Assembly (NCBI GenBank): GCA_003214355.1
Contig: QCLS01000002.1
Coordinates: 124,001-188,000, forward strand
DNA length: 64,000 nucleotides
Direction: 5' to 3'
From: Prochlorococcus sp. AG-418-C09
Lineage (GTDB): Bacteria; Cyanobacteriota; Cyanobacteriia; PCC-6307; Cyanobiaceae
This document shows positions 26,856 to 29,162 of the stretch, in pieces. Every line of letters starts with the position of its first letter. Within the stretch, counting starts at the first letter, position 1. The notes below the pieces were generated by a model, which was given only the letters and a program-made list of their open reading frames with translations, did not search any database and was not told the origin of the DNA. The translations under genes and the position numbers were made by a program.

Positions 26856-27077
26856 AATTAATAAGATTTTAATTGAGCGAAGTATATTTAAAAAAAAATA
26901 TTAATACAGAGCTAAAATTTGATACATTAGGAACTTGTCCTGTTAACAATATCTTTACTACTAATAAAGATTGAAACAAGAAAATAAATATTGTTTGCCT
27001 AAAATTAATGATTCAAATGAAGCAAAAATTTTTGTTATATTAATCTTAGATTAATATTAAAAATTACTAATTCAGGC

Positions 27078-28085
27078 ATCGTCAATAAAGAAAATAAACA
27101 AACTTCTCTTTCCAGTTTAACTTGGCAAAAGGAGCTAAAAAAATATGTTGATCCCCCAAGTTTTTGGAATCCAACATTAGGTCTGTTTTTTGGCGGATAT
27201 TTTTTAGCTTTCATAAGTATTTGGCATTGGTATAAAGGGGATTGGCCACTGCCGTTATTAGTTGGTACGGCTTTCTTAGCTCTTCATATTGAAGGAACAG
27301 TAATTCATGATGCCTGTCATAAAGCAGCACACCCAGTTCCTTGGATCAATCAACTGATGGGACATGGATCTGCAATACTTTTAGGTTTTAGTTTTCCTGT
27401 CTTTACAAGGGTACATCTCCAGCATCACATACATGTTAATGACCCTAAAAATGATCCGGACCATATTGTCAGCACATTTGGCCCAATATGGTTAATTGCT
27501 CCTCGATTCTTTTATCATGAGATATTCTTCTTTCAAAGAAAACTTTGGAGAAGATACGAACTTATGCAATGGGGAATTGAAAGATCAATTTTCATAACGA
27601 TTATATTGGCAGGTATTAAATTTGATTTTATGAATTTAATCTACAACTTATGGTTTGGACCAGCACTTATGGTAGGAGTAACATTAGGAATATTTTTTGA
27701 CTATTTACCACATAGGCCATTTCGTTCAAGAAATAAATGGTTAAATGCCAGGGTATACCCAAGCAAGTTTATGAATATATTGATAATGGGCCAAAATTAT
27801 CATCTCATTCATCATTTATGGCCTTCTATCCCATGGTTTGAATATAAAATTGCCTATGAGAAAACAAAACCTTTATTAGAAAAGAAAGGTTCCCCCCAAA
27901 GAGTAGGCATTTTCGAAACGAAAGAAGATACTTATAATTTTATTTATGATTTATTAGTAGGAGTAAGGAGCCACAAAAAATACAGAGGTAAGTTAAGAAG
28001 AATAATCAATTTATATCCAGGCAAAAAATCAAGGAAATTCTTTTTAAATTTAATAAATAAAACTTATATAGGCGGCACCAAATAA
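27078..28085 (+). CDS. crtR: beta-carotene hydroxylase CrtR; no ATG/GTG/TTG start available
   Basis: CrtR hydroxylates beta-carotene (or deoxy-carotenoids) toward zeaxanthin, a main photoprotective pigment of this group, in the membrane. Three histidine motifs of the di-iron fatty-acid-desaturase-like family are visible: HDACHKAAH, HLQHHIH and NYHLIHH. The N-terminal WQKELKKYVDPPSFWNPTLG is family-conserved and lies upstream of the first in-frame ATG (27357), so the protein must start earlier. The frame is open from 27021, yet no in-frame ATG, GTG or TTG occurs before 27357. I place the start at ATC 27078 (encoding IVNKENKQTS...); ATT 27063 is an alternative. The start is uncertain, the gene is not. 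Confidence 0.9.
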   Translation: MVNKENKQTSLSSLTWQKELKKYVDPPSFWNPTLGLFFGGYFLAFISIWHWYKGDWPLPLLVGTAFLALHIEGTVIHDACHKAAHPVPWINQLMGHGSAILLGFSFPVFTRVHLQHHIHVNDPKNDPDHIVSTFGPIWLIAPRFFYHEIFFFQRKLWRRYELMQWGIERSIFITIILAGIKFDFMNLIYNLWFGPALMVGVTLGIFFDYLPHRPFRSRNKWLNARVYPSKFMNILIMGQNYHLIHHLWPSIPWFEYKIAYEKTKPLLEKKGSPQRVGIFETKEDTYNFIYDLLVGVRSHKKYRGKLRRIINLYPGKKSRKFFLNLINKTYIGGTK

Positions 28086-28380: not shown

Positions 28381-28553
28381 ACGTATATTTAAAAGATTAA
28401 TTAATTAAATTATAGTGAATGAATTACGTTTAATACTATAAAGCGGTGATTTAATTTTTTTAAGTAAATTTAATAGTTCTTCTTTTTTATTTTTTTATTT
28501 AATAAAAACTAGACTTAAGTCTCATTAGCGTTAAAAATAAAGTTAGCTAATTT

Positions 28554-29162
28554 ATTAAAATAACTAAGAAAATTCTTGAAAAAAAGTTTTTTAATCGTCA
28601 CTCAAATCTTGTTGCACCTGATTTAATAGGCTGCCAATTAATAAGATTTTTTGACGATAAAGTTGCTGTCAAAGGTATTATCGTTGAAACAGAGGCCTAT
28701 TCTCAAGAAGAGGCTTCTTGTCATGGGCATAATAGAAAGACACAAAGCAATAGTCCTATTTTTGGCGAACCTGGTACTATATATATTTACAAGTCATATG
28801 GTTTACATTATTGCTTAAATCTTGTCACAGACAATATTGGTTTTGCTAGTGGAGTTTTAATAAGATCAGTTGAGATGGAATATCAAGATGAAAGATCCGC
28901 TTCAGGGCCTGGGCTTGTAGCTAGAAGTTTGCAATTAGATTTAAAATTTAATTCCCTTAGAATTTACTCTAATAAATACTTAAAAATATATGATTGCGGA
29001 ATTAAATTCAATGATAAAGAGATAGTAAATACCAGAAGGATTGGAATCACAAAAGCCTCGGACTTAAAGTGGAGATGGTACCTAAAAAGAAGCAGATCCA
29101 TTAGTAAAAGACAAAAGGGGGACAAAAAACCTCGTAAAGAAATTTCTTCTAAACACAATTAA
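28554..29162 (+). CDS. 3-methyladenine DNA glycosylase (AAG/MPG family); start codon unclear
   Basis: The protein removes alkylated purines from DNA in base excision repair. Family motifs are clear: [35 protein letters not shown] with the catalytic Glu, [19 protein letters not shown], and SGVLIRSVE followed by [11 protein letters not shown]. The first ATG in frame is 28875, far inside the domain. The conserved N-terminus begins near 28585 but no ATG, GTG or TTG precedes it in frame; the frame opens at 28551. I give ATT 28554; ATT 28572 is possible. Alternatively a TTG at 28576 would be in frame if the A7 run at 28579-28585 were A8, i.e. a frameshift or sequence error. pyrB starts 10 nt after its stop. 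Confidence 0.85.

Follow-up and report, generated by a model that had tools for sequence, protein, structure and literature searches.

The pcnB gene of Escherichia coli has a near-cognate start codon and is opposed by initiation factor IF3. According to PMC5472188, IF3 represses non-canonical starts, those of infC and sigR included; infC begins with ATT in E. coli and with ATC in Streptomyces, and Streptomyces sigR begins with GTC, a non-canonical codon that limits expression via IF3 and is reported to have been misannotated. The crtR gene of Prochlorococcus sp. AG-418-C09, located in the 64,000 nt stretch of DNA analysed here (the window), appears to resemble infC in carrying a near-cognate start, AUU or, in some relatives, AUC, that would be opposed by IF3. 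The two genes differ in that infC is autoregulated whereas crtR specifies a pigment enzyme. In the window's genus, moreover, infC starts with ATG in 29 of 30 loci, unlike its E. coli and Streptomyces counterparts. Streptomyces sigR differs from crtR in both codon and gene, and its start has been proven experimentally whereas that of crtR is proposed from sequence. In other genera of the family the gene is the same but nearly always carries an in-frame ATG.

Prochlorococcus ranks with the most abundant photosynthetic organisms and owes its zeaxanthin to crtR. The evidence below makes it very likely that crtR is translated from a near-cognate AUU at nt 27063–27065; IF3-restrained initiation at this codon would then be expected to keep a low ceiling on the hydroxylase.

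Probable start site of crtR in the window and the genus

The features relevant to crtR are as follows.

27063..28085, + strand: proposed coding sequence of crtR, beta-carotene hydroxylase (340 codons plus TAA, ATT start), compared with 109 other distinct sequences of the genus
27063..27065, + strand: proposed start codon ATT (AUU); ATT or ATC in 110 of 110 genus sequences, whereas 44 of 46 loci from other genera have ATG at the equivalent position
27306..27332, + strand: first His box, HDACHKAAH, which would be lost were translation to begin at ATG 27357
27036..27041, + strand: TATATT, a conserved -10-like box 21 nt 5' of the ATT, forming a promoter-like match with TTCAAA (27012–27017)
27047..27062, + strand: putative short leader of about 12–16 nt, placed solely from where the -10-like box lies

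The crtR frame is open on the + strand from nt 27021 to 28085 (354 codons), directly following a TGA (27018–27020), and its first in-frame ATG, GTG or TTG is the ATG at 27357, codon 113. A codon scan thus confirmed an earlier note on this DNA, which had described the frame as open from 27021 with no canonical start ahead of 27357. The note had also warned that automated annotation would shorten the protein and drop its first His box; this would hold for a gene finder limited to ATG, GTG and TTG, as the box lies 5' of ATG 27357. The 112 codons without a canonical start represent the maximum among 56 non-overlapping open frames of the window, each of at least 100 codons; the runner-up has 108, and the median is 6 codons ahead of the first ATG, GTG or TTG. 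Given the in-frame codon frequencies of the window, the chance of 112 successive codons lacking all three is about 0.02 per gene, and that for the 34 codons up to a conserved W is about 0.3, so that, in a single genome, the observation is only mildly improbable; what gives it weight is its conservation among relatives. The product matches the NCBIfam model NF045688 with 474.2 bits (E 1.3e-142), which is 0.8 bit below the curated cut-off of 475, and also matches Pfam FA_desaturase. The NF045688 match, which begins at residue 23 of the ATT-started protein, and the desaturase-type His box HDACHKAAH together mark it as a CrtR.

A protein search detected crtR in 171 of 200 genomes of the genus. The genus set comprised 30 loci from this search, the best 80 of 362 loci in a genome collection and 24 loci from a family search; with the window counted once, these made 133 rows and 110 distinct sequences of 460 nt. 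The codon aligned with 27063–27065 is ATT in 103 of the 110 and ATC in the other seven, never ATA or ATG, and its first two bases are invariant. The window crtR has no ATG, GTG or TTG ahead of its conserved N-terminus, and its relatives keep ATT or ATC at one site. Each of 23 other well-conserved Ile codons of crtR has at least one ATA among the genus sequences; the absence of ATA at the start site may be taken as a limited signal, and a weak one because the genus sequences are related. An in-frame stop occurs one codon upstream of the site in six sequences and two codons upstream in a further 20, which leaves no start further upstream in these 26 of the 110. The length between the site and the PPSFWNP anchor differs in three of 110, by four whole codons, and the TATATT box, present in all 110, ends 21 nt (106 sequences) or 22 nt (four sequences) before the ATT or ATC. 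The conserved codon, the spacing of the box, the upstream stops and the whole-codon length changes all argue for a start at ATT/ATC. In one locus (L048) the search pattern admitted a second candidate codon four codons downstream, and the first one was used.

These results support the proposal of the earlier note that crtR has a rare start codon and, of the two codons it named, favour ATT 27063. The other, ATC 27078, was rejected since the aligned codon is not conserved in the genus, with base counts indicating mostly AGT or AAT. The note had further supposed that relatives may have ATG at the start; this fails within the genus, where ATG is absent from the 27063 site in all 110 sequences, and holds in other genera.

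The codon directly 5' of the site is ACG in 80 of the 110 sequences, ACA in 17, ATG in five and ACT in four, with AAA (the window), CCG, TCG and GCA once each. Since ACG is a known weak start codon, it could in principle initiate there, and this preceding codon, or either of the two, might be the true start; the ATG found at the position in five sequences points the same way. The idea is nevertheless improbable, as 30 of the 110 sequences, the window included, have no ACG there and 25 have AAA, ACA, ACT, CCG, TCG or GCA, against an invariant ATT/ATC in the next codon. A codon that varies in this manner is not the genus-wide start, although the five strains with ATG before ATT probably do use that ATG. 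A canonical codon 5' of the conserved N-terminus was found in 10 of 112 genus rows (three of them window copies): five are these same cases of ATG directly 5' of ATT, and in the other five the codon lies 47 or more codons ahead of the anchor, on the 5' side of the TATATT box.

The TATATT box also bears on the proposal that ribosomes enter upstream, at a mini-ORF in a different frame (ATG 27008 or ATG 27017), and arrive in the crtR frame through coupling, re-initiation or frameshifting. Short ORFs beginning with ATG were seen by eye upstream of crtR, both in the window and in a good many relatives. However, they sit above the conserved box and vary among relatives, and the spacing from box to ATT is off by 1 nt in four of the 110 sequences; frameshifting from an upstream mini-ORF was rejected on the first two grounds, and the proposal as a whole is very unlikely. 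A scan for sigma-70-like promoters returned two sites, with 1.8 expected from shuffled sequences, and as this is no excess it is conservation alone that argues for a promoter at this position. No Shine–Dalgarno motif was seen by eye in the short crtR leader of the window. For Prochlorococcus MED4, PMC5607370 suggests that leaderless mRNAs or ribosomal protein S1 may be what initiation depends on.

Translation could also begin at ATG 27357, the first in-frame canonical codon, with the frame upstream of it left untranslated or with a short isoform as the only product. This was examined by comparing 68 codons (27153–27356, starting at the first P of PPSFWNP) between the window and the 109 other sequences, using pooled pairwise counts, which are not independent events. 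Differences at codon positions 1, 2 and 3 numbered 754, 432 and 3172, and the changed codons were synonymous in 2769 cases and nonsynonymous in 689. This excess of third-position and synonymous change argues that the stretch is translated. In the 12 nt 5' of the ATT, the pooled pairwise counts for the same phases were 234, 323 and 111, and the third-position excess is absent. With its upstream codons evolving as coding sequence, the first His box located upstream and the CrtR model matching from so early in the ATT-started protein, ATG 27357 was rejected as the start, and there is only a very slight chance that it serves as such. Least probable of all, to the point of being negligible, is an error of sequencing, assembly or strain whereby a true ATG was lost in the window record, as the earlier note had considered: the genome is a draft of 32 contigs, but the relatives refute this by carrying ATT or ATC in all 110 distinct sequences, from many assemblies and including the named strains MIT 9401 and MIT 9302.

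crtR in other genera and ancestry of the start codon

A search of the family matched crtR in 285 of 300 genomes. Forty-six loci from 34 other genera were compared, six from this search and 40 picked to spread over genera, a set that stops short of the family's most remote members. The proteins show about 71–80% identity to that of the window, and 44 of the 46 loci have an in-frame ATG 26–33 codons before the anchor residue. The start-site context in sister genera is often GCA ATG ACN, as against GCA ATT ACT AAC in one genus locus (L004), AAA ATT ACT AAT in the window and, for the greater part of the genus, ACG ATT TCA. Given ATT/ATC in the genus and ATG at the corresponding place elsewhere, it is most likely that ATT/ATC arose directly from an ATG in the genus ancestor and that the descendants kept the change; the two codons were matched by inspection of short, variable N-termini.

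In a tree of the 110 genus sequences, rooted at its midpoint and with 47 of its 107 inner branches drawn open, the early branches, which include the window, L004 and HNLC-type sequences, all carry ATT or ATC. The five cases of ATG before ATT require at least three changes on this tree, with starred branches forcing one, and 119 of 500 shuffles gave values as low; a single or a repeated origin would both fit.

The two exceptions among the 46 loci are L157 and L176. In L157, from another genus (genome G202), the crtR frame has no ATG and the nearest in-frame canonical codon is TTG; the place of the former ATG, now apparently ATA, is out of frame with crtR. A second genome of the same genus (L349) has kept the ATG. 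In L176 (also L350; genome G251), the upstream ATG is cut off by a frameshift in a C homopolymer close behind the crtR N-terminus, which represents either an assembly error or a real homopolymer change.

Proposed initiation at AUU and its possible consequences

Under this proposal, initiator tRNA would read the AUU at 27063–27065 as formyl-Met. Its pairing would involve bases 1 and 2 of the codon and leave base 3 unpaired, so that initiation would be weak and restrained by IF3. PMC10158994 reports that IF3 tolerates only Watson–Crick pairs at the first two bases, with weak third-base pairs excluded. The start codon would then set a low ceiling on synthesis of the hydroxylase, and a shortage of IF3 relative to 30S subunits would be expected to raise it. 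Reduced crtR expression from such a start, as suggested in the earlier note, is plausible. A relaxed IF3 was rejected as the cause, the IF3 of the window's genome being without obvious loss, which does not by itself prove normal discrimination; it looks ordinary, with residues 19–182 aligning with 5lmn_X and residues 17–181 with 8jsg_A. In PMC3441193, crtR mRNA of Prochlorococcus PCC 9511 is described as surging at 9 am and then declining, and that of Synechococcus WH7803 as tracking irradiance.

No report of a non-canonical start for crtR or in Prochlorococcus was present among the literature matches listed, whose scope excludes subscription papers and genome annotations. If true, the genus-wide AUU of crtR would be a rare natural near-cognate start, long kept, outside infC, pcnB and sigR. 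The AUU strains, the AUC strains, the five strains with AUG before AUU and the sister genera with AUG would offer a natural series for studies of IF3-dependent initiation.

Other genes that appear to lack canonical starts in the same genome

A further gene of the window appears to lack a canonical start, and two others, recF and a SpoU-family methylase gene, stood out in 343 kb of contig C1 of the same genome (320 open frames, each 100 codons or longer), where they were picked by eye among 18 listed frames.

28551..29162, + strand: open frame of mpg (methylpurine-DNA glycosylase; Pfam PF02245), with no ATG, GTG or TTG before its conserved N-terminus
L226:16173-17264 (contig C1 263170-264264, - strand; also L231): recF, in which a conserved ATT replaces ATG
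L214:15474-16361 (contig C1 34471-35361, - strand; also L290): SpoU-family methylase gene, with ATA seven codons before ITSK

The first canonical codon of mpg in the window is codon 109, and its start is likely to be the ATA at 28560–28562, with an ATA near this place in most relatives of the genus. A canonical in-frame codon ahead of the conserved FFxRHS motif is present in 11 of the 94 distinct loci compared in the genus; ATA is the sole near-cognate AUN codon ahead of the motif in 82 of the 94, and the first AUN codon comes one codon past a stop in 70. The recF product scores 283.1 bits with TIGR00611 (cut-off 172), model position 1 falling at residue 7. Its putative start site reads ATT in all 32 genus loci examined; in 27 loci from other genera the site reads ATT 25 times and ATC and ATG once each. 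When stops are disregarded, a canonical codon falls within the interval from six before to eight after the anchor in nine of the 59 recF loci, and in two of these nine it lies at or beside the ATT.

The methylase matches PF00588, with an MRM3-like substrate-binding domain that begins at residue 24; no NCBIfam model scored above its cut-off, and the protein is named at the SpoU-family level only. In a comparison that left out L348, all 31 genus loci share an ATA at a single position, and one of them has a canonical codon within 14 codons upstream. The case for an AUN start is weaker than for the other genes because 20 of 27 loci in other genera have such a canonical codon, mostly TTG.

About four of the 376 sampled frames of this one genome look AUN-started. 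The infC gene was rejected as a further member, as it starts with ATG in 29 of 30 genus loci (L183–L212, L186 being the window's genome), the remaining one (L207) having no readable start; autoregulation of IF3 through AUU, of the E. coli type, thus appears to be absent from the genus. A broader idea, possible but on balance doubtful, is that AUU, AUC and AUA starts are a standing device in marine picocyanobacteria, selected on crtR, mpg, recF, the methylase and perhaps others as low-output starts that respond jointly to IF3, with infC escaping via AUG. Gene finders limited to ATG, GTG and TTG would shorten crtR, recF and mpg in these genomes. In several sister genera the methylase gene has an ATT or ATC behind GAGG, and most of these also have a TTG, GTG or ATG nearby.
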